NCBI GenBank assembly: GCA_017550385.1
Contig: JAFZPJ010000010.1
Location: 1-35,709, forward strand
Origin: Clostridiales bacterium
GTDB taxonomy: Bacteria > Bacillota > Clostridia > Saccharofermentanales > Saccharofermentanaceae
Direction of reading: 5' to 3'
DNA: 35,709 nucleotides
Notes under the pieces: model-generated
What the model was told of the DNA's origin: nothing
The model's input: only the letters and a program-made list of their open reading frames with translations
The model's database searches: none
Shown here: piece by piece, positions 21,173-30,531 of the stretch
How the letters are laid out: every line of letters begins with the position of its first letter
How positions within the stretch are numbered: position 1 is the first letter of the stretch
Program-made: the position numbers and the translations under genes

Positions 21173-21781
21173 ATGAACATCTATGTTGATTTTGACGACT
21201 GCCTGTGCGAGACCGCGAGGTCCTTCTCGGATATCGTGAAGGAAGAATTCGGTATCGATGTGCCTTATGAGAAGATGAGGTATTTCAACCTGCAGAAGTC
21301 TTTTGACCTTAACGACGAACAGTACGAGTGGCTGCTCATCAAGGGACATGAACCGGATGTTCTCCTTGCTTACGAAGAGACTCCGGGCGCTGTAGCAACC
21401 GTGAATGAATGGATAGACAGGGGTCACAATGTCTCGATAATAACGGGGCGTCCGTTCAACGCTTACGATACTTCCAGAGAGTGGCTCGACACTCACGGTC
21501 TTAAGAACGTCGAACTGTTCTGTCTCAACAAGTACAGCAGAGACGGCAGCATGTATAACAGCAGCTTCAGCCTCGAACTTGAAGACTACTACAAGATGAA
21601 GTTCGATGCTGCAGTAGAAGACTCGCCTTCCGCGTTCAGGTTTTTCGAGCATCTGCCGGAGCTTCAGGTGATGGTGTATGACCGCCCGTGGAACAGAGAG
21701 GGAGAATTCCCGAACGGCAATTACACAAGGTGTCTTGACTGGGAGAGCATAAGGCAGAAGATCGCCGCAAGCGCAAGTTGA
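21173..21781 (+). CDS. HAD-family hydrolase, 5'-nucleotidase-like
   Basis: This 202-residue protein starts IYVDFDDCLCETARS, the HAD motif I D-x-D with the nucleophile Asp and an adjacent D-C. Motif II is in SIITGRP. The late acidic motif is VEDSPSAF followed by a strand, VMVYDRPWN. The layout fits the 5'(3')-deoxyribonucleotidase/YqfW group of phosphatases with an alpha-helical cap between motifs I and II (about 20-75). Substrate is unknown, but a nucleotide or sugar phosphate is likely. The ATG at 21173 has GGAG eight bases before it. A TTG at 21170 is also in frame. The stop codon overlaps the -35 hexamer of a consensus promoter for the next genes. Confidence 0.78.
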   Translation: MNIYVDFDDCLCETARSFSDIVKEEFGIDVPYEKMRYFNLQKSFDLNDEQYEWLLIKGHEPDVLLAYEETPGAVATVNEWIDRGHNVSIITGRPFNAYDTSREWLDTHGLKNVELFCLNKYSRDGSMYNSSFSLELEDYYKMKFDAAVEDSPSAFRFFEHLPELQVMVYDRPWNREGEFPNGNYTRCLDWESIRQKIAASAS

Positions 21782-21806
21782 CATCCCTTAATAATAATAA
21801 TATAAT
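21778..21806 (+). promoter_or_regulatory. perfect consensus promoter upstream of the zinc-ribbon gene and rpoD
   Basis: TTGACA (21778-21783), a 17-base spacer and TATAAT (21801-21806) match the sigma-70/sigma-A consensus at all twelve positions and at ideal spacing. The -35 hexamer overlaps the TGA of the preceding gene. It should be strong. The leader of about 130 bases includes the dyad at 21851-21864. Confidence 0.85.
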
Positions 21807-21943: not shown

Positions 21944-22675
21944 ATGGCTACTACACAAGGTATGTGCACGAACTGCGGTTCGCTGGTCATTTTCGATGAC
22001 AGAGATGAGAACTGCGAGTGCGTCTTTTGTCACTGCGTCTTTCCGGCAGCGGAAGCAATAGAGCTTCTTGCCAATCCGGACGGACACGAGTTCAAGAATG
22101 AGAAGTTCGAAGCTCAGGAGGGCGGCAAGCATTACTATGCTACTCCCATGCAGCCTGACATCGTTGCCAAGGCTGTACAGAGAGACAAGATATCCAAGGC
22201 TAAGAGTGATGATCTCAAGATCAAGCCCAATGAGTTCGAACTGTCGCCCAACGACGTTAAGGCTCCGGCCAAGATGGTCATTGCCATCATTGCAGCTGCT
22301 GTCGTTTGCGTAGGTATCATCCTCGCTATAGCTTGGCCTATGTACAACACCAGAACTCAGCTCACCGATGCGATGGTAAGCAAGCTCGATACGGTCTTTG
22401 AAGGCCAGGCTGACGTCGACCTCTCACTTAACGATGACGGATATGCTGCAGGTTACTGCATCTCAGGCAAGACATGCCAGAATCTGAAGGTAGAGACTTC
22501 CGATGAGATCGATGAAGCAGCAGCACAGAAGATCTTCGACAACTATTGCGATCTCAGGGCATCCGAAGGCGGAGATAACGCTAAGTCTTCCGCAGATGTT
22601 ACGGTTGAGATCTACACTCCGACAACGATCTATACGGTAAAGGCTGACGGTGTTACGGTCAGCGAAGCAGACTGA
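21944..22675 (+). CDS. zinc-ribbon single-span membrane protein
   Basis: The N-terminus of this 243-residue protein is a zinc ribbon (C-T-N-C-G at about 8-12, C-V-F-C-H at about 27-31). Next come a charged region, one membrane span near 109-132 (starting MVIAIIAAAVVCVGIILAIAW) and a C-terminal domain of about 110 residues, probably outside the cell, with three cysteines and a beta-rich pattern. The ribbon would face the cytoplasm. I recognise no family. It resembles the protein at 8090 in its ribbon (C-x2-C-G followed by C-x-F-C) and in joining it to membrane segments. A consensus promoter drives it, and rpoD follows 15 bases after its stop, so it is probably co-transcribed with the main sigma factor. 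Confidence 0.7.
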   Translation: MATTQGMCTNCGSLVIFDDRDENCECVFCHCVFPAAEAIELLANPDGHEFKNEKFEAQEGGKHYYATPMQPDIVAKAVQRDKISKAKSDDLKIKPNEFELSPNDVKAPAKMVIAIIAAAVVCVGIILAIAWPMYNTRTQLTDAMVSKLDTVFEGQADVDLSLNDDGYAAGYCISGKTCQNLKVETSDEIDEAAAQKIFDNYCDLRASEGGDNAKSSADVTVEIYTPTTIYTVKADGVTVSEAD

Positions 22676-22690
22676 TGAGGTATTCGATCA

Positions 22691-23941
22691 ATGACAGATT
22701 TTGACAAGGCATTTACATCAGCTAAGAAGCTTGCAGGAAAGAGGAAGAAGTCCCTTACGGCAGCTGAACTCGAATCAATTACTGATAACTACAAGATGGG
22801 CCCCGATGACATGCTCGCTCTCAGGACAGAACTTGAGAATGCAGGCATCACCGTAAGCGAGCCCGAAGTCGATCTCGATCTTGATATCGATCTCGATAAG
22901 ATCGAGGAGGTCGAGGAGATCGAAGAGATAGAGAAGATCGAGAAGATCGAAGACATTGATAAGCTCGACGATCTGGACAAGATAGAAGATCTCGAGAGCA
23001 TCGCTAATCTCGAGGGACTCGAAGGTCTTGAGAACATCGACAGTCTCGACCTCGAACCCATCGATGACGATGATGCCGTAGTAGATACCGATACTTCCGT
23101 AGATGACAGCAACGGCGTCGACGACTCGGTCAAGATGTACCTCAAGGAGATCGGTAAGATCGACCTTCTCGAACCCGAGGAAGAGCGCATCATCGCACAG
23201 AAGATGGCTGAAGGCGATGAGGATGCCAAGGAGACGCTCATCAATTCCAACTTGAGACTCGTTGTATCCATCGCCAAGAAGTACATGAACCGCGGCCTGT
23301 CGCTCCTCGATCTAATCCAGGAAGGCAACATCGGTCTCATCAAGGCAGTCGACAAGTTCGACTATACAAAGGGATTCAAGTTCTCCACATATGCAACATG
23401 GTGGATCAGACAGGCTATCACAAGAGCCATCGCCGATCAGGCACGTACGATCCGTATTCCCGTTCATATGGTAGAGACCATCAACAAGCTTACAAGGATC
23501 CAGAGACAGCTCGTCCAGGATCTCGGAAGGGAACCTACAACGGATGAACTCGCAGAGGCTATGGGCATGGAGCCTGCAAAGATCCGCGAGATCCAGAAGA
23601 TATCACAGGATCCTATCTCCATCGACAAGCCTGTCGGTGAGGAAGAGGATTCACACCTCGTAGACTTCATCTCCAACGATGAGCTCGCTGCTCCTGAAGA
23701 AGAGGTTGCAAGGAATCTCCTCAAGGAAGACCTCATCAAGGCACTCGGCACGCTTACAGAGCGTGAGCGTAAGGTCATCGAACTCAGATTCGGTCTTAAG
23801 GACGGCGTTCCGATGACACTCGAGCAGGTCGGTAAGAAGCTCGGCGTTACGCGTGAGCGTATCAGACAGATCGAGGCAAAGGCTATCAGAAAGCTCTCCA
23901 GAGCTTCAAGCTCCAAGAAACTGGAAGGTTACATAGACTAA
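22691..23941 (+). CDS. rpoD: primary sigma factor (RpoD/SigA)
   Basis: The housekeeping sigma factor, 416 residues. A short region 1.1-like domain (about 1-52) is followed by an unusual acidic repeat region (57-127), region 1.2 ([14 protein letters not shown]), region 2 ([35 protein letters not shown], which contacts the -10), region 3, and region 4 with [17 protein letters not shown], the -35 recognition helix. All core residues look intact. The region between 1.1 and 1.2 holds sixteen tandem tripeptides of the form I/L/V-E/D-x (71-118). Many Firmicutes have a short or charged linker there, but not one this regular. The ribosome site is weak (GAGG 15 bases away). dnaG, the usual upstream neighbour, is absent. 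Confidence 0.96.
22901..23044 (+). repeat. degenerate 9-bp tandem repeat inside rpoD
   Basis: Sixteen consecutive 9-base units, of which ATCGAGGAG and ATCGAGAAG are typical, encode I/L/V-E/D-x triplets without a break. One unit (I-A-N) lacks the acidic residue. The units differ at third positions and by A/G changes, so the array is old or selected rather than a fresh slippage product. The acidic stretch also continues irregularly on both sides. Confidence 0.8.
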
Positions 23942-23959: not shown

Positions 23960-25477
23960 GTGTCCGACCGTAAGATTTATTCTTTCTACAAAGGTTTATT
24001 TCCGGGGGACGTTTTGAACTTTTCAAAACGTTCTCCTTTTGTCAAGGAAATAATGCTGGAGAGGATATATCCCAGACGCGTTATCCTTCCCATGAAGATG
24101 CATTACGGCGTGCCGGCAGTACCGATCGTAGGGAAGGGTGATCTTGTCAAAGCAGGCCAGTGCGTCGGCCTTCCCGAGAAAGGCGCTTTCTCCGTTCCCG
24201 TTCATACGGGCGTATCCGGCAAGGTTACGGACATCAAGGAGATAACGCTTCCCAACGGCATCAGGACTCCCGCAGTATTCATCGAAAACGACATGAAGCG
24301 CACGCGCCTCGATTCGCTCAAGCCGAGGAGCTCCCTGAAACTGTCTGCGACTGAGACCATAGGCGTCATCAGGAATGCCGGCATCTGCGGAATGGGCGGT
24401 GAGGGCATCCCGACTGCGGCAAAACTTGCCAGGGCAAGGGGAAAAGCCGTCACGGATTTCCTCGTCAACTGCCTTCAGAGCGAACCATATTCCACATCCG
24501 ATCTTACTGCGATCGTCGAATATCCTGACTATGTAGTCATGGGCGCCGCTGCCTGCGCGAGAGCCGTAGGTGCGGCAAATCTTTACTTCCTGATCTCCAA
24601 GGACAGGAAGGTTGAACGTGCCGCACTGGAAGCTTCCATCTCAAGGGCAAAGCGCGACTTCGAAGACCTCAATATCGAGATCAAGCTCTTCCGCGAGCGT
24701 TTCCCGCAGGGTTACTACAGACTTGTGGGTAAGGCTCTCTACGGCAAGATCATCGAAGAAGGAGAGACCATCGAAGATATCTGCGATGCAGTACTCTTCA
24801 ACTGTTCGACCATGCTCGCTTGCTGGGAAGCGATATCAGACAATATCCCTATGATGAGCAGGATCGTATCGCTGTCAGGAGGATCTTCCGGCGGACATAA
24901 CGTGCTCGTTCCTATCGGCACACCGGTATCCGAGCTTCTTGCAAATTCATACTCCGAAGACAGTTCGGAGAACAGGATAATCTGGGGCAACTGTCTTACG
25001 GGCATCGAGATCGATGACCCCGAGAACACGCCTATCATCAAGATGACTTCCGTTATCTCGGTAGTAAGGAAGACGGAGATCCCGAGGACTGCGTGCATTC
25101 ACTGCGGACTCTGCTCCGAGTGCTGCCCGGTATCCATATCGCCTAACATAATCTTCGAGATGCTCGCCCAGGGCCTCGGCCAGAAAGCGTCCGAAGAAGG
25201 CGCGAGAAGATGCATATCCTGCGGGTGCTGCTCTTATGTGTGCCCGGCCGGAATAGATCTTACGAGCGCTATTGCCGAGTTCGCCAACCGCGGCAAGGTC
25301 ATCGAAGCCAATACGCTTCTAGACAACAACGCGGCCGATCTCGATTATTCTATGCTCCCCGAGCAGGAGACTGCAGAAGCTTCGCTCCTTGAAGACTATT
25401 CAGAGGACGCCGGAGCAGAAGAGACTAAGGATGACGGTTCCATCGTTCTTCCGTTCGACGGAGGCAAGAAGATATGA
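23960..25477 (+). CDS. rnfC: RnfC-like electron transport subunit
   Basis: In the Rnf complex RnfC is the peripheral NADH- and FMN-binding subunit that passes electrons through two [4Fe-4S] clusters. This 505-residue protein has the N-terminal RnfC sandwich domain, the nucleotide/FMN loop GMGGEGIPTAAKL followed by EPYSTSD, an SLBB-like domain, and two intact motifs: C379-x2-C382-x2-C385-x3-C389 and C418-x2-C421-x2-C424-x3-C428. The tail after 450 is short and acidic, without the long Ala/Lys extension of proteobacterial RnfC. It starts with GTG, six bases after CGGAGG, 18 bases after the rpoD stop. It overlaps rnfD by four bases (ATGA). The family call is firm. Whether it works in a complete Rnf is doubtful. 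Confidence 0.88.
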   Translation: MSDRKIYSFYKGLFPGDVLNFSKRSPFVKEIMLERIYPRRVILPMKMHYGVPAVPIVGKGDLVKAGQCVGLPEKGAFSVPVHTGVSGKVTDIKEITLPNGIRTPAVFIENDMKRTRLDSLKPRSSLKLSATETIGVIRNAGICGMGGEGIPTAAKLARARGKAVTDFLVNCLQSEPYSTSDLTAIVEYPDYVVMGAAACARAVGAANLYFLISKDRKVERAALEASISRAKRDFEDLNIEIKLFRERFPQGYYRLVGKALYGKIIEEGETIEDICDAVLFNCSTMLACWEAISDNIPMMSRIVSLSGGSSGGHNVLVPIGTPVSELLANSYSEDSSENRIIWGNCLTGIEIDDPENTPIIKMTSVISVVRKTEIPRTACIHCGLCSECCPVSISPNIIFEMLAQGLGQKASEEGARRCISCGCCSYVCPAGIDLTSAIAEFANRGKVIEANTLLDNNAADLDYSMLPEQETAEASLLEDYSEDAGAEETKDDGSIVLPFDGGKKI

Positions 25478-26427
25478 TCAGGAAGACTCTCGCACCGTTC
25501 ATCCATACAGAGAAGAACGCACCTTATATCTACCTTACGATAATCGCGGCGCTGGTACCTGCCTGCTGCTACAGCATCTTCTATTACGGCGTCAGGGCTG
25601 CGATAATGCTCCTGGTATGTACGCTGTCATTCATGACCTGCGACATTATCTGTTCCAAGGTGTCCAGGCGTGACGGCAACGGCGAGTATTACGACCTGAG
25701 TTCCATCGTGTCAGGTCTTGTTTTCGCGCTGCTGCTGCCTCCCGATACTCCGGTTTACATCGCGCTGGCGGGCGTGCTGTTCGGTTCGGTGGTAACCAAG
25801 CAGATCTTCGGCGGCGCCGGCTCCAACATAATCAATCCCGCTGCCGGCGGAAGGCTCTTCATAGAGATGGTATTCCCGTCCGGGATGAGGGGCTTTGCAG
25901 AGCCCAGGGAAAACTGGTTCGGCATAGACAGCCTCATCAACGCTCCCTCGGGAGAATTTGTTCCCGAGTATTCTGACCTCAGCCTTATCGAGCTCGTGAG
26001 CGGTAATTTTGCCGGACTGCTCGGTGCTTCATGCGCGGCCCTTGCAGTGCTCGGAGCCATATTCCTCCTGATGCGCGGCAACCTGAGGCTTTATGCTCCG
26101 CTGTCGTACATCGCATCTCTGGCGGTGCTCTACTATGTGATGCATCCGGGTTCCGACATGCTGACATTCATGCTCTCTTCGGGTGTGTTCTTCGTCGCGG
26201 TGTTCATGCTCGGCGACATGACCACGATCCCTTCGAGGTTCGCCGCAGGTGCTTTCGCGGGCCTTGTGTGCGCTGTCCTTACGGTGGTGCTGCTGCCTCA
26301 CGTCTCGTTAGGAATGGCACTTATCGCACCGGTAGTTACCGTTAACCTGATGTCGTTCGTCATGGACTTCTTCTCGAAAACATTCTCCAGGCGCTCCAAG
26401 CCTTCGAGGGAGGTGGATGTCCTATGA
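25474..26427 (+). CDS. rnfD: RnfD/NqrB-like membrane subunit, flavinylation motif not visible
   Basis: RnfD is a polytopic protein that normally carries FMN bound to a Thr in an S/T-G-A-T-type motif. The 317-residue chain has about nine to ten spans and recognisable family segments: APYIYLTIIAALVPACC, GLVFALLLPPDTP, and QIFGGAGSNIINPAAGGRLF (residues 110-129). Where the flavin-linked motif should follow, in the loop around 150-162, the sequence is FGIDSLINAPSGEFV, with no Thr and no G-A-T. The usual G-E-T-S after the next segment is also replaced (LLGASCAAL). The fold is therefore RnfD, but covalent flavin attachment appears lost or moved. Four-base overlaps with rnfC and with the next gene indicate coupled translation. 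Confidence 0.85.
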   Translation: MIRKTLAPFIHTEKNAPYIYLTIIAALVPACCYSIFYYGVRAAIMLLVCTLSFMTCDIICSKVSRRDGNGEYYDLSSIVSGLVFALLLPPDTPVYIALAGVLFGSVVTKQIFGGAGSNIINPAAGGRLFIEMVFPSGMRGFAEPRENWFGIDSLINAPSGEFVPEYSDLSLIELVSGNFAGLLGASCAALAVLGAIFLLMRGNLRLYAPLSYIASLAVLYYVMHPGSDMLTFMLSSGVFFVAVFMLGDMTTIPSRFAAGAFAGLVCAVLTVVLLPHVSLGMALIAPVVTVNLMSFVMDFFSKTFSRRSKPSREVDVL

Positions 26428-27851
26428 TGACCCGCGCCCAGCTCAAGAGGTTCATTGCAGAGTGCGTCATCCTGCTGCTCGTCAGCTCCGTGCTGATCGT
26501 TGCAGGCTATATGGTCTCCTCGACCAAATCCGACATAAGGGTACAGATAAGCCTCGTCGAGCGTTTCAGCCCTGTGCTCAAGGCATCGTCTTTTGCTCCG
26601 ACCGGCGGCGCGGTGCTGGCTGATTATCCGGAGATCAACTCCGTGTATATCGGTTATGACAGCAACGGCGATCCTATAGGTTACGTCATCGATATGACTT
26701 CCGTTGCAGACGACGGGACGAAGCTCCACTTGCTCATCGGATTCGAATACGAGAACGCCAAGATAACCGGCATCACCAGAGTGGGCGACAGCGACGATAC
26801 ATATCAGATGAATCCCAATGCCTTCACTTCGATCACGAACAAGCTGACAGGAGCGCAGGTACCGATCGCTTTCATAAGTGAAGACGATACCGAGGACATC
26901 TCTTCTGAAGAAGCAAATCCCGCTACGGGTCTCAAGGACGGAACGTATTACGCCCAGATGCTGACCGATGATAAGAACGGCTATATTGATTACGTCGAGA
27001 TGGAGATCGAGGACGGCGTCATCACCAAGGTCAAATGGGACGCCTTCAACATAGACCCGACCACCGAGGTCAGGAGCCAGGCATCGCTGTCCGGCGCTTA
27101 TGAGATCCCCGGTATAGACTGGGCGACGCAGTCATATAACATCTGCCACGCGCTCCTCCTTACGCAGGATCCCGAAGCCCTGGCGATGAAGTCCGACGGC
27201 ACGACCGAGATCGTCGACGGCGTTACCTGCAATATCAGGGCGTTCGTGGAACTCTCGCTCGAGTGCATCGAGAACTCTAAGGCGGGCTTCGACAAGAACG
27301 ATTACATGGAGGCCCTGAGCGCTCTCTATAAGAACTGCACGGGCTATGCTCCCGAAGATACCGGCGTCATCAACAAGGACGGTTTCCTTGTGTATTCTTT
27401 CGAGAAGTATCCCGAGAAGTACTGCATCATGACGGATGGCGACGATCCCGAGATAATCGAGGTGCTCAGTGTCCTCGAGATAACGCAGATGATGCCCGAT
27501 GAAGTCGTTGATGACGATGAGCCTGAGGAGACGGAAGATACGGATCAGACCGGCATCACCGAAGAGACGATGGCAGAGACAACAGCAGAGACGGAAGTAA
27601 CGGAAGCGACTGAAGTAACCGAAGAGACCATTCCTGGCAGCACGAATCCGAACGGTGCTGAGGACGGTATCGTTCCAGGCAGCGGTGCCGATAAGCAGAT
27701 CCTTACTGACAGTATCGACGATCTGCCGCTGTCCGAGATAGAGACGTATATCATACCCGACGACCAATACTATGGTGATACGAGGCTGATGGTGCACATG
27801 TGCAACACCTGCTACAAATTCTTCAAAGATTATCTGAACTGGCTGGTATAA
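26424..27851 (+). CDS. divergent RnfG-like protein with an FMN-bind-like domain
   Basis: It occupies the rnfG position and has the same plan: a single N-terminal span (about 11-31) and an extracytoplasmic part. Residues 60-145 resemble the first part of RnfG (IGYVIDMTS ... LLIGFEYENAKITGITRVGD). Residues 169-290 look like an FMN-bind domain (KDGTYYAQM ... NGYIDYVEMEIEDGVITKVKWD). The flavinylation site D-x-V/I-S/T-G-A-T should stand near 265, but the sequence is VDGVTCNIRAFVEL. At 475 residues it is more than twice the usual RnfG length and ends in an acidic Thr/Glu-rich linker (about 365-410) and a small C-terminal region with two cysteines (CNTC). GGGAGG lies about ten bases before the ATG. 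The assignment rests on position and these segments. Confidence 0.62.
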   Translation: MMTRAQLKRFIAECVILLLVSSVLIVAGYMVSSTKSDIRVQISLVERFSPVLKASSFAPTGGAVLADYPEINSVYIGYDSNGDPIGYVIDMTSVADDGTKLHLLIGFEYENAKITGITRVGDSDDTYQMNPNAFTSITNKLTGAQVPIAFISEDDTEDISSEEANPATGLKDGTYYAQMLTDDKNGYIDYVEMEIEDGVITKVKWDAFNIDPTTEVRSQASLSGAYEIPGIDWATQSYNICHALLLTQDPEALAMKSDGTTEIVDGVTCNIRAFVELSLECIENSKAGFDKNDYMEALSALYKNCTGYAPEDTGVINKDGFLVYSFEKYPEKYCIMTDGDDPEIIEVLSVLEITQMMPDEVVDDDEPEETEDTDQTGITEETMAETTAETEVTEATEVTEETIPGSTNPNGAEDGIVPGSGADKQILTDSIDDLPLSEIETYIIPDDQYYGDTRLMVHMCNTCYKFFKDYLNWLV

Positions 27852-27852
27852 G

Positions 27853-29007
27853 ATGGGACTGTTTACTGAGAAATACAATACTCCGTTTGATAACGAGAGC
27901 AGCAGAAGGCCGTATAACGAGAAGCCTACTGCTCTTCACATCAAGCCTGCCGGATACATGACGACGAGAAGTGCGGTGTTCCTCGGATTCACGCTCGTCT
28001 CGCTGTGCATCGAATTCATCTTCGAGGGGCAGCTGCTATGGTGGCCTGCTCTGTGCAGCTTCGCGGTCCTCATGTTCTGGACGTTCACGTTCAGGTTCTT
28101 CATGCCGCGTAAACTCGCAGTACTGTCGCTCATTGCCTGCATAGGCCTGTTCTACGGATCCTGCGTTGCATCTTCGAAGCTCGGCTGGTGCAGCGCTTCT
28201 GCGTGCGCGGGATTCGTTCCCATGGCTCTCGGCATGATGACGCTGTCGAGGTTCTGCGCAGACGGTGAAGAGGAATACCGCCCCGCATCGGTACTGAAGG
28301 AAGTACTCCTTCCTTACCTTGCTGCCGTCTCGGTCGCTCTCGCGGGCACGTTCATAACGGCAATAGCTGAGAAGAGCTATATCTTCATAAGCCTGCTCGC
28401 AGCCACTGCGATCCTCATCTTCGGTTCATGGATGTATTCGGCACTGACGGGAACGCCTCATTATCTGACTTCAAGGGAACTTACGGAATTCTGGAACATC
28501 CCCGTTGCCGACTTCGAGGAGTTCAGGAGATTCTGCATCGCGAGGGCGGAGTTCGCTCTTGTATGTGCCGGATCTATTGCCGTATCTCTGGCATCCACGC
28601 ATTTCCTGGCGCCTGAGATCGCTTCGCTGGTCATCACGCCCGCATCGCTCCTCGTTGCTGTCGGACTCGGATATCTCATGATAATCACGGGCAGGCCCGG
28701 AGACCGCAGATCCATCTTCGGCACGCGCTACTTCATGAGCGAGGCCCTGATCGGCGCCGCGTTCGTAATGCTGCCCTTCATTAAGCTCCTTCCGGGAAGT
28801 CCTTCCCTTACGGCGGTAGTAACGGCATTTGTCTTTGCCGTTTGCGGCGACATCCTCGTGACCGGACTTCTGTCGGTCATAAGGAGAAGACTTATCTTCG
28901 TATCCAAATCCAAATTCATAGACGGACTGCCGTTTTATCTTATACTGGTATCATACGTCATCATGTTGTTCGAGACGGCGATCTACCACATTCCGGGCCT
29001 TATCTGA
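27853..29007 (+). CDS. multi-spanning membrane protein with clustered cysteines, unknown
   Basis: This 384-residue protein starts one base after the stop of the RnfG-like gene, where rnfE and rnfA would be expected. It is not homologous to them by eye. A polar N-terminal 35 residues precede about eleven hydrophobic segments. Cysteines are frequent: C52 and C68 in spans 1-2, C96 and C104 in span 3, C113 and C118 at the start of span 4, C135 after it. RnfA and RnfE carry a [2Fe-2S] cluster between them in the membrane, so a metal or redox role here is conceivable but unproven. No known family is recognised. The tight spacing and absence of a strong ribosome site suggest translation coupled to the RnfG-like gene. 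Confidence 0.6.
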   Translation: MGLFTEKYNTPFDNESSRRPYNEKPTALHIKPAGYMTTRSAVFLGFTLVSLCIEFIFEGQLLWWPALCSFAVLMFWTFTFRFFMPRKLAVLSLIACIGLFYGSCVASSKLGWCSASACAGFVPMALGMMTLSRFCADGEEEYRPASVLKEVLLPYLAAVSVALAGTFITAIAEKSYIFISLLAATAILIFGSWMYSALTGTPHYLTSRELTEFWNIPVADFEEFRRFCIARAEFALVCAGSIAVSLASTHFLAPEIASLVITPASLLVAVGLGYLMIITGRPGDRRSIFGTRYFMSEALIGAAFVMLPFIKLLPGSPSLTAVVTAFVFAVCGDILVTGLLSVIRRRLIFVSKSKFIDGLPFYLILVSYVIMLFETAIYHIPGLI

Positions 29008-29031
29008 TTGGGCCCGATCAGGAGGTTACAT

Positions 29032-30531
29032 ATGCTGACAAAGAGACTTTTTGGAATCGTCATGACTGCCGCGATGGTCATAAGCGGGTTTCCGCTAATG
29101 AGCAGCGCTGCGACGAGCGATGCTGCAGGCGGCATCACGCTGTCCGGTACCTGCCACGTCCAGGACTACGGCGATACCGAGGGAAAGTGGGATGAGACTA
29201 CGGGTATCCTTACTCTCGGCACTAGAGGCCAGTCCAAGAGGGTAGAGGCGATCACGATCAACTTCGAAAACAACACCGGCTACGGCGGAACTCTCCAGTA
29301 CCGTGTTCACGTACAGGACATCGGCTGGCAGGACTACCGCACGGCAGGCGAGATGGCAGGCACGTCAGGCCAGTCGAAGCGTCTCGAAGGAATCGAGATG
29401 GAGCTTACCGGCGACCTCGCTGCATACTACACTGTCGAATATGCCGTGCACATCCAGGACTACGGCGATGCGCAGGGCTTCGTATCTGACGGCGCGCTCG
29501 CAGGTACTACGGGCGAATCCAAGAGACTCGAAGAGGTACAGATAAGGATCGTTCCCAGAGGGACCGGCAATTCCACTTCGGTCAATTACCGTGTCCACAG
29601 ACAGGACTTCGGCTGGGAGAGCACATGGGCAAAAGACGGCAGCGAGTCCGGAACGACAGGCCAGTCCAAGAGACTTGAAGGCATTGAGATCCACCTTACC
29701 GGAAATCAGTATTCCGGCAGTATCGAATACCACACTCACGTTCAGAATATAGGATGGGAGACTGACTGGGCAAAGGACGGTGAGATGAGCGGTACCCAAG
29801 GTCTGAGTTACAGGCTCGAGGGCATCGAGATCAAGCTCACCGGCGAGGTGGCTAACTATTACGATGTATATTACAGAGTTCACGCTCAGGATTTCGGCTG
29901 GCTCGGCTGGGCAAAGAACGGTGAGATGAGCGGTACTTCCGGTCTGTCCAAGAGGCTTGAAGCGATCCAGATCGTTCTCGTAGCCAAGGGTCAGACACCT
30001 CCGGATACGCTCTGCGGCATTACTCCCAACAGACCTGATGATGCGAGCCTGACGGCAGCGGATTTCCCTCCTGGACTCATAACGGAAGGCAATCCTTTTG
30101 CACAGTGGTGCCTTGATACATTCCCCGCAGATCCTAATGCACCCGGCGCAGAAGGGAATACGTTCTACATTGCTTCATACAGCTGGCCTTATAAGTATGC
30201 CGGATCCTCTCCTGCAGGCTGCGACTGCTCGGGCTTCGTTGTGTATGTAATGAGAGAGTATTTCGGCAAGAGCGTGTATCACGGAATGCACAAGCTGGCG
30301 TTCAGCACGGGAACCGTTATCTCTTACAGCGAGCTTCAGCCCGGAGACTGGCTCTGTGATTCCACTTACTATCACGGATACGTCTATTTCTATGTCGGCA
30401 AAGACAACTACGGCCAAGACATAATCCTGGTCGGCAGTACCGACGGCGAGAATACGGTCGTTCCGACATTGAAGAGCTTTGATATCCAGGCCTGGCTTGA
30501 AGAGCCCGGCCACGATCTGAAGAGGGTGTAA
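29032..30531 (+). CDS. secreted ChW-repeat protein with NlpC/P60-like domain
   Basis: A signal peptide (KRLFGIVMTAAMVISG then FPLMSSAAT) leads into six ChW repeats over about residues 37-320. Each has the core V-H-x-Q-D/N-x-G-W (some with Y-G-D) and ends G-x-S-K/Y-R-L/V-E. ChW repeats are typical of clostridial surface proteins and are thought to bind cell wall or host ligands. After a linker, residues from about 380 form an NlpC/P60-type cysteine peptidase: AGCDCSGFVVYVM holds the nucleophile Cys, and YYHGYVYFYVG the catalytic His. It is likely to cut peptidoglycan stem peptides. GGAGG lies six bases before the ATG at 29032. The open frame before it has no ribosome site. Its stop overlaps the next ATG (TAATG). 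Confidence 0.85.
   Translation: MLTKRLFGIVMTAAMVISGFPLMSSAATSDAAGGITLSGTCHVQDYGDTEGKWDETTGILTLGTRGQSKRVEAITINFENNTGYGGTLQYRVHVQDIGWQDYRTAGEMAGTSGQSKRLEGIEMELTGDLAAYYTVEYAVHIQDYGDAQGFVSDGALAGTTGESKRLEEVQIRIVPRGTGNSTSVNYRVHRQDFGWESTWAKDGSESGTTGQSKRLEGIEIHLTGNQYSGSIEYHTHVQNIGWETDWAKDGEMSGTQGLSYRLEGIEIKLTGEVANYYDVYYRVHAQDFGWLGWAKNGEMSGTSGLSKRLEAIQIVLVAKGQTPPDTLCGITPNRPDDASLTAADFPPGLITEGNPFAQWCLDTFPADPNAPGAEGNTFYIASYSWPYKYAGSSPAGCDCSGFVVYVMREYFGKSVYHGMHKLAFSTGTVISYSELQPGDWLCDSTYYHGYVYFYVGKDNYGQDIILVGSTDGENTVVPTLKSFDIQAWLEEPGHDLKRV

Follow-up and report, generated by a model that had tools for sequence, protein, structure and literature searches.

What might an Rnf-like operon do that keeps the iron–sulfur motifs of RnfC but lacks RnfB and the flavin-attachment motifs of RnfD and RnfG? 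The question is raised by four genes in a 35 709-nucleotide stretch of DNA from a Clostridiales bacterium (contig JAFZPJ010000010.1; the window), which is part of a 1.85 Mb metagenome-assembled genome (MAG) that is 84.6% complete. The genes, rnfC', rnfD', rnfG' and X (Table 1), are closely packed: the C'–D' and D'–G' frames overlap by four nucleotides each and the gap between G' and X is one nucleotide. A preliminary description of this DNA had seen in them a C, a D and a G-like gene without A, B or E, accompanied by a novel polytopic protein, and had proposed a distinct membrane redox module linked to reduced nicotinamide adenine dinucleotide (NADH), with noncovalent flavin or none. From alignments and fold comparison, C', D' and G' are clearly derived from RnfC, RnfD and RnfG. 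RnfB is missing, as are the flavin mononucleotide (FMN)-threonine motifs of both RnfD and the RnfG part; nearly all of the genus also lacks the flavin transferase. Our favored reading, to which we give a probability of about 0.45, is that the operon is an old Rnf paralog that has become a membrane redox module which carries no covalent flavin and does not pump. In broader terms, a second, stripped copy of Rnf that is conserved beside rpoD probably does a new membrane redox job. No description of such a reduced Rnf set was found in the open-access literature.

Distribution, descent and selection

The genera and family referred to here are program-made groups: the window's genus (g1) comprises 85 genomes and four sister genera together hold 30, so that the family (f1) has 115 genomes in five genera. 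Most of these genomes are MAGs, and each count of absences rests on many genomes together and not on any single one. Conservation was counted in a larger alignment set, consisting of the window and those loci of relatives that yielded the respective gene (C', 78 rows; D' and G', 79 rows each; at least one of the rows, L168, is similar to sister genus g20), and in a five-genus alignment of C' and D' with 53 rows. The record labels of the 79 loci read Saccharofermentans, Mageeibacillus, Ruminococcaceae, Oscillospiraceae and Clostridia/Clostridiales, which are labels and not a classification. Many of the loci were sampled from the rumen, other ruminant gut sites and horse faeces. Experimental tests may be feasible, as some members occur in records titled as strains and not as MAGs (YAD3003, YRB3002, KHP2 and AB4001).

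The four-gene arrangement recurs in relatives, where the preliminary description had suggested looking for it. Among 35 genomes of the genus, the window's own included, the genes lie on one contig in 34 and over two contigs in the remaining one (G034). One of the 34 (G033) has C' and D' as a single 806-residue frame (L083:4348-6768 and L119:4584-7004), which could be a natural fusion or a sequence error. RnfG' was found in 113 of the 115 family genomes, comprising 83/85 in the window's genus and 30/30 in the sister genera; the two genomes without a match (G077 and G103) both belong to the window's genus. Across the order (188 genomes) and a sample of the class (391 genomes), matches that cover most of RnfG' are confined to the family. 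Outside it, a match is mainly to one of two parts, the RnfG part or the inserted domain described below, the exceptions being G180 and G181, which have both in one place. A search with the window's X found nothing in 24 genomes from other families of the order, 20 of which contain the flavin transferase ApbE.

The canonical Rnf is distributed quite differently. RnfA/E (PF02508) was matched in 0/85 genomes of the window's genus versus 28/30 of the sister genera, and ApbE in 3/85 versus 29/30; neither was found in the window's own genome. The RnfB-specific N-terminal half was matched in 29/30 sister-genus genomes, and among the matches listed (to an E-value of ∼7e-9) no row of the window's genus includes it, those rows covering the ferredoxin-like part only. 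The ten sister-genus Rnf loci examined carry RnfC- or RnfD-like genes together with RnfA/E, on contigs apart from the reduced set. In the RnfC tree, the reduced group occupies one side of a branch (100/100) and the canonical RnfC of the sister genera, which adjoins a canonical RnfC from another member of the order, forms a second group (100/100). The same two groups are recovered for RnfD (100/100 and 100/99). These separate groups indicate that the reduced set did not arise by decay of the Rnf that the family has today but is a paralog no younger than the five genera, and the counts indicate that the window's genus has lost the true Rnf. The full Rnf that the preliminary description had thought might lie elsewhere in the genome thus coexists with the reduced set in the sister genera, separate from it in the trees, while RnfA/E is missing from the genus itself.

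All four genes are under strong purifying selection. The ratio of nonsynonymous to synonymous substitution rates (dN/dS) between the window and locus L091 is 0.045 for C, 0.117 for D, 0.088 for G and 0.070 for X, with 0.069 for rpoD; against L092, where the synonymous distance is 0.78 to 1.76, the corresponding values are 0.047, 0.118, 0.078 and 0.066, with 0.106 for rpoD. It is therefore scarcely credible that the operon is a decaying Rnf remnant. The loss of many motifs, the disappearance of RnfA/E from the genus and the splitting of G' into two frames in one genome (G107, loci L185 and L166) would fit decay, but selection and distribution largely refute it: the range of 0.045–0.118 resembles that of rpoD (0.069–0.106), G' is retained by nearly the entire family and the group occurs in five genera, in four of which the reduced set is accompanied by RnfA/E. 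Decay, which the preliminary description had named as a way in which its proposal might fail, is thus not what is seen.

The four proteins and their cofactor sites

RnfC' scores 267 bits against TIGR01945 (cut-off 246 bits) and matches the structure 7zc6_C with an E-value of 9.8e-56. All eight cluster cysteines are invariant (78/78 rows in the larger set and 53/53 over five genera), in agreement with the earlier statement that both [4Fe-4S] motifs are kept. The nucleotide loop, which had also been called intact, is so only in part. Lys155, Asn170 and Glu175 are retained in 78/78 rows and are the same in 4/4 canonical rows, but GGAGF has become GGEGI and the glutamate two residues ahead of the conserved E-P has become glutamine. 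The substitutions A148E and E173Q are present in 78/78 rows and the canonical Phe150 is replaced by Ile, Leu, Val or Thr in 78/78 (F150I in the window), whereas the canonical rows have Ala, Phe and Glu at these three positions in 4/4. Over the five genera, Gln173 is found in 52/53 rows and position 148 is Glu, Asp or Asn in 53/53. The NuoF residue that aligns here with Glu173 contacts the nicotinamide through a water and is termed strictly conserved (PMC6560083); no paper joining NuoF E95Q with NADPH was found in the open-access literature. Because the pocket is changed in all 78 rows, we doubt that NADH is the donor of RnfC'; the electrons may come from NADH, NADPH or a protein. Of the proposal in the preliminary description, a distinct membrane module derived from Rnf, apparently without covalent flavin in this genus and lacking the ferredoxin side, is supported and proves to be conserved, but the NADH link is doubtful.

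In the structure from A. woodii (PMC11889175), the FMN and the two clusters of RnfC form a line toward RnfD, and RnfD holds riboflavin (Asn123 and Asp249) as well as FMN on Thr156. The two riboflavin-site residues are present in the window's RnfD' as Asn121 and Asp248, the asparagine being kept in 69/79 rows and the aspartate in 75/79 (49/53 and 50/53, respectively, over five genera). The SATP-like FMN motif, by contrast, is found in 0/79 rows, the window included, as had been noticed from this single sequence; among the sister-genus rows shown, one locus (L173 of genus g18) retains it as DTISSATPS.

RnfG' has no Pfam match. The two related domains that had been suspected in it are an RnfG fold and a PplA/CPE2226-type domain inserted into that fold. 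The C-terminal tail resembles RnfG in sequence at hhalign E-values of 0.004–0.01, which is weak (all hhalign E-values given here are from one-against-one comparisons), and helix 447–474 of the predicted structure falls inside the range aligned with RnfG/NqrC. A bridging protein from outside the family (L258) retains DAVSGAT at the position in the tail where RnfG' has lost SGAT. The covalent FMN threonine of the RnfG part is therefore not present. The FMN-binding domain model PF04205 was matched in 0/35 genomes searched of the window's genus, the conserved Dxx(S/T)GAT motif being absent with xGVT in its place. In G107, the two frames into which RnfG' is broken overlap (L185:4406-5732, also L166); this genome is one of the three in the genus that have ApbE.

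The earlier reader had also considered that an S/T-G-A-T motif might be displaced but present, and this is partly so: VDGVT of the inserted domain aligns with DAISGAT of 2kzx, which places Thr268 at the position of the flavin threonine of that structure. Thr268 belongs to the inserted domain and is conserved (77 Thr, one Ser and one gap in 79 rows). If it were still flavinylated, the operon would encode an ordinary flavinylated Rnf-type system. We regard this as very improbable, because ApbE was not found in 82/85 genomes of the genus and the residue is not conserved in the family, being Glu, Asp, Val, Lys or Arg in five loci of sister genera g17 and g19, which do have ApbE.

A different route to the outer face would use noncovalent flavins, or a redox disulfide between Cys241 and Cys281 of G' in place of flavin, to supply an extracytosolic reductase. 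Such a route would suit the FMN_bind/PplA-type fold of the inserted domain and the conservation of the two cysteines in the larger set (Cys241 in 79/79 rows; Cys281 in 78/79, with one gap). However, Cys241 is kept in only 2/15 sister-genus loci (L178 and L182), no reductase gene is linked among the conserved neighbors and, again, 82 of the 85 genus genomes yielded no ApbE. We consider this route unlikely.

Protein X gave nothing significant in Pfam over 52 members (best single E-value 0.02). It is probably, with good support but not certainty, a degenerate fusion of RnfE and RnfA that lacks the cysteines for the membrane [2Fe-2S] cluster, so that the preliminary description was right that separate RnfA, RnfB and RnfE genes are missing but probably wrong to regard X as novel. 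The N-terminal half of sister-genus X matches RnfE with an hhalign probability of 93.8% (E = 1.8e-7 over 167 columns), and the top two PDB matches of sister-genus X are RnfE (E = 6.9e-4 and 8.5e-4). When canonical RnfE was compared with 1378 open reading frames, six sister-genus X proteins (E = 2e-5 to 0.02) came immediately below the true RnfE/A rows and were followed by noise. The C-terminal half of all 66 X rows ranks RnfA rows first (best E = 7.5e-6). The best-conserved cysteine column of X reaches 45% of the 66 rows, whereas canonical RnfE (13 rows) and canonical RnfA (14 rows) each have two invariant cysteines.

Other comparisons speak against this assignment. The X of the window's genus (52 rows) has no direct match to RnfE (0.3%) and only a weak one to RnfA (2.9%), the N-terminal half of all 66 rows reaches 1.5% with RnfE, and the C-terminal half of sister-genus X is slightly nearer to RnfE than to RnfA rows, all of these matches being weak (best E = 0.0065). 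Because a direct match is absent and the X proteins of the window's genus and of the sister genera match one another (E = 5e-9, over residues 161–373 of the window's X), the link of the window's X to RnfE runs through the sister genera. The RnfE half is thus well supported in the sister genera only, and the RnfA half more weakly. RnfE/NqrD chains are not in the fold list for X, which is uninformative either way. As for an unrelated transporter, X reached hhalign probabilities of 0.1 to 0.6% with the permease-like cluster c9, the MATE-like cluster c12 (both named by eye) and RnfD, and this candidate was rejected.

Proposed function and gene neighborhood

According to the A. woodii work (PMC11889175), the NADH arm of Rnf begins at RnfC and continues through the riboflavin and then the FMN of RnfD to the FMN of RnfG. 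RnfB and the RnfA/E cluster make up the ferredoxin arm, and the pumping of Na+ is attributed to RnfA/E and not to RnfD. In the module that we favor, electrons would enter from the cytosol at RnfC', by way of FMN and then the two [4Fe-4S] clusters, and would pass on to riboflavin in RnfD', which would amount to the NAD(H)-side arm of Rnf minus the ferredoxin arm. Neither the ferredoxin:NAD loop nor the sodium stroke of Rnf would be possible in this arrangement. The electrons would most likely be given to an acceptor in the membrane or at its outer face, with the rebuilt extracytosolic G' as the output or docking part and X as a scaffold.

Several points weigh against such a module. Its redox activity and its partners are predictions, and with no FMN in D and G the electrons of riboflavin would have no obvious path to the outer face. 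The pocket for NADH in RnfC' is altered (A148E, F150I and E173Q). The riboflavin asparagine is not kept in 10/79 rows and the aspartate in 4/79, and part of the genus may not bind riboflavin in RnfD' at all. The linkage to rpoD carries no functional information, and the absences on which the reading depends come mostly from MAGs, the window's own being incomplete at 84.6%.

The loss of all outward carriers (FMN in D, FMN in G and the [2Fe-2S] cluster) would be expected if the complex were instead a redox sensor or regulated scaffold, in which the iron–sulfur/flavin state of RnfC' is read as a conformational change via D', the E–A fusion and G'. The output would then be the extracytosolic domain or transport through the E–A fold, with no net electron delivery. 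Rnf itself has been proposed to alternate between inward and outward states (PMC11889175), the gene string is shared with rpoD, and conservation is uneven in the same sense: among 35 rows, 116 positions of RnfC' and 66 of G' are conserved at ≥95%, which is far better than in D' (21) and X (7). However, no signaling domain and no conserved target gene were seen, and the riboflavin site, which would be superfluous for a pure scaffold, is retained in most rows. We regard a sensor or scaffold as the main rival, possible but doubtful. It is likewise conceivable, although we would not lean on it, that the operon encodes a complete Rnf pump so rebuilt that pumping by the Rnf cycle has ceased. A cytosolic flavin/iron–sulfur head would drive a new extracytosolic domain and a cofactor-poor body (D' and the E–A fusion), working as a redox-driven signaling or transport machine or a one-way membrane reductase that is tied to the housekeeping sigma factor and has outlived the true Rnf of the genus.

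The operon belongs to a longer conserved string. The gene rpoD is located immediately 5' of rnfC' in 73/78 stretches, and c4 keeps its position upstream of rpoD in 71/80 stretches (the window counted in both cases) and in the sister genera. The c4 product has no Pfam match above the cut-off; short N-terminal cysteine pairs (zinc-ribbon-like by eye) are followed by a single membrane helix and an extracytosolic tail. Besides c4 and rpoD, no other gene cluster is conserved beside the operon except c5/c6, further upstream in about half of the loci; not all of these clusters were identified. Four loci (L137, L140, L141 and L157) have two consecutive frames of the rpoD cluster before rnfC', perhaps a split or duplicated rpoD. 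Downstream, a protein with six ChW repeats and an NlpC/P60 domain is encoded at 29008-30531; its cluster (c24) adjoins the operon only in L091 among the 79 loci.

A putative promoter upstream of c4 is the sole perfect site among seven promoter-like sites found by a scan for which shuffled sequences gave a mean of 5.5. A terminator-like hairpin near the start of rnfC' may be an attenuator that separates rpoD from the rnf' genes. Of the 36 distinct segments, which come from 71/78 stretches after the seven without a matching motif had been dropped, 34 fold lower here than at least 297/300 synonymous recodings. Covariation in 32 of these segments points both ways: 83.1% of cells pair, compared with 42.5–62.5% when the partner is slid, but the five pairs that are changed on both sides are a number reached by 130/500 shuffles, and some slid controls score higher on changes. 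A hairpin 42–44 nucleotides after the start, of different sequence, is the best local one in 7/16 further loci (15 sister-genus loci and L168; two of the seven share one genome, and no null was run).

Table 1. Positions of the operon, its parts and its upstream neighbors in the window
Feature	Position	Strand	Basis or remark
Reduced Rnf-like operon (C', D', G', X)	23960-29007	+	Four genes directly after rpoD
rnfC', 505 residues, RnfC-like FMN/[4Fe-4S] subunit	23960..25477	+	RnfC_N, Complex1_51K; TIGR01945; 7zc6_C
Altered nucleotide/FMN pocket of RnfC', residues 141-176 (GGEGIPT and NCLQSEP)	24380..24487	+	Alignment
Two [4Fe-4S] motifs of RnfC' (C379, 382, 385, 389, 418, 421, 424, 428)	25094..25243	+	Alignment
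rnfD', 317 residues, NqrB/RnfD family	25474..26427	+	PF03116, 179 bits
Site of lost FMN-threonine motif of RnfD', residues 148-162	25915..25959	+	Alignment
rnfG', 475 residues, RnfG fold split by inserted domain	26424..27851	+	Sequence and fold comparison
RnfG N-terminal half: membrane helix and first part of flavoprotein fold	26424..26876	+	
Inserted PplA/CPE2226-type FMN_bind-like domain with KSDGTTxIVxGVT	26931..27293	+	
C-terminal tail completing the RnfG fold, SGAT motif gone	27660..27848	+	
X, 384 residues, polytopic, probable degenerate RnfE-RnfA fusion	27853..29007	+	
Probable RnfE-derived half of X	27964..28452	+	By position and via sister-genus X
Probable RnfA-derived half of X	28498..28998	+	
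Putative sigma-70 consensus promoter, TTGACA-17-TATAAT, 12/12 match	21778..21806	+	137 nucleotides upstream of c4, first gene of the presumed operon
c4	21944..22675	+	First gene of conserved string; ends 15 nucleotides before rpoD
rpoD, sigma-70 factor	22691..23941	+	Stop 18 nucleotides upstream of rnfC'
Terminator-like hairpin, 15 pairs then TTTTG	24004-24036	+	Within rnfC' coding start

Comparison with known systems

Among the closest known systems is Rnf itself (RnfCDGEAB), the ferredoxin:NAD+ oxidoreductase and Na+ or H+ pump, with which the reduced set shares homologous C, D, G and probably E and A proteins, the gene order, the clusters of RnfC and, for the most part, the riboflavin site. 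The reduced set differs in the absence of RnfB, in the fusion of E and A without conserved cysteines, in the lack of an FMN-threonine in D or in the RnfG part, in the PplA-type domain within G, in the changed nucleotide pocket of RnfC and in the absence of ApbE from most of the genus. Annotation by RnfC and RnfD models would suggest energy conservation by Rnf in bacteria that apparently have no such complex. The reduced set also offers a natural experiment that may tell which Rnf parts are required for electron entry, membrane crossing and ion pumping.

The one-way flavinylated systems related to NQR and RNF, in which an RnfD/NqrB–NqrF fusion occurs in flavinylation-associated clusters (Meheust et al., 2021, PMC8238504), share with the reduced set the idea of outward electron flow by one arm of Rnf or Nqr, but the reduced set has neither an NqrF domain nor a flavin motif in D'. 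The inserted domain of G' resembles CPE2226 (2kzx, PplA-like) in both fold and sequence; in G', however, it is placed inside RnfG, S-G-A-T has become D-G-V-T and two sister genera no longer have the threonine.

An operon of genus g28, in another family of the order (G180 and G181; L258:2544-9062, L259 and L260), has the order ApbE-C-D-G-(E)-(A), its E being called by position and size only and its A by weak profile matches. Its RnfG contains two PplA-like domains at the same place of insertion and no rnfB is seen alongside, as in the reduced set, but ApbE is adjacent, the RnfG tail retains DAVSGAT or DAIAGAT, and E and A are separate. The g28 RnfC keeps its cysteine motifs, and by eye the usual glycine loop is missing from it. 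In the RnfC tree g28 attaches between the reduced group and the canonical one (the branches are long, and the program warned of this), and in the RnfD tree it falls among canonical rows (92/81). Together with the FMN motif kept in D' of L173, the ApbE and RnfG motif kept in L258 would represent intermediate states.

A similar origin, as a paralog of Rnf from which RnfB was lost, has been proposed for Na+-NQR (NqrABCDEF; PMC4014512), and NqrA is without redox cofactors (PMC12174285). Electrons are fed by NqrF there, and no NqrF-like gene is among the four genes of the operon; here, RnfC' retains its cluster motifs and the membrane path is lost. If our reading is correct, the reduced set would be a second remodeling of Rnf after Na+-NQR and would run in the opposite direction, with a head that keeps its cofactor motifs and a membrane path that loses them.

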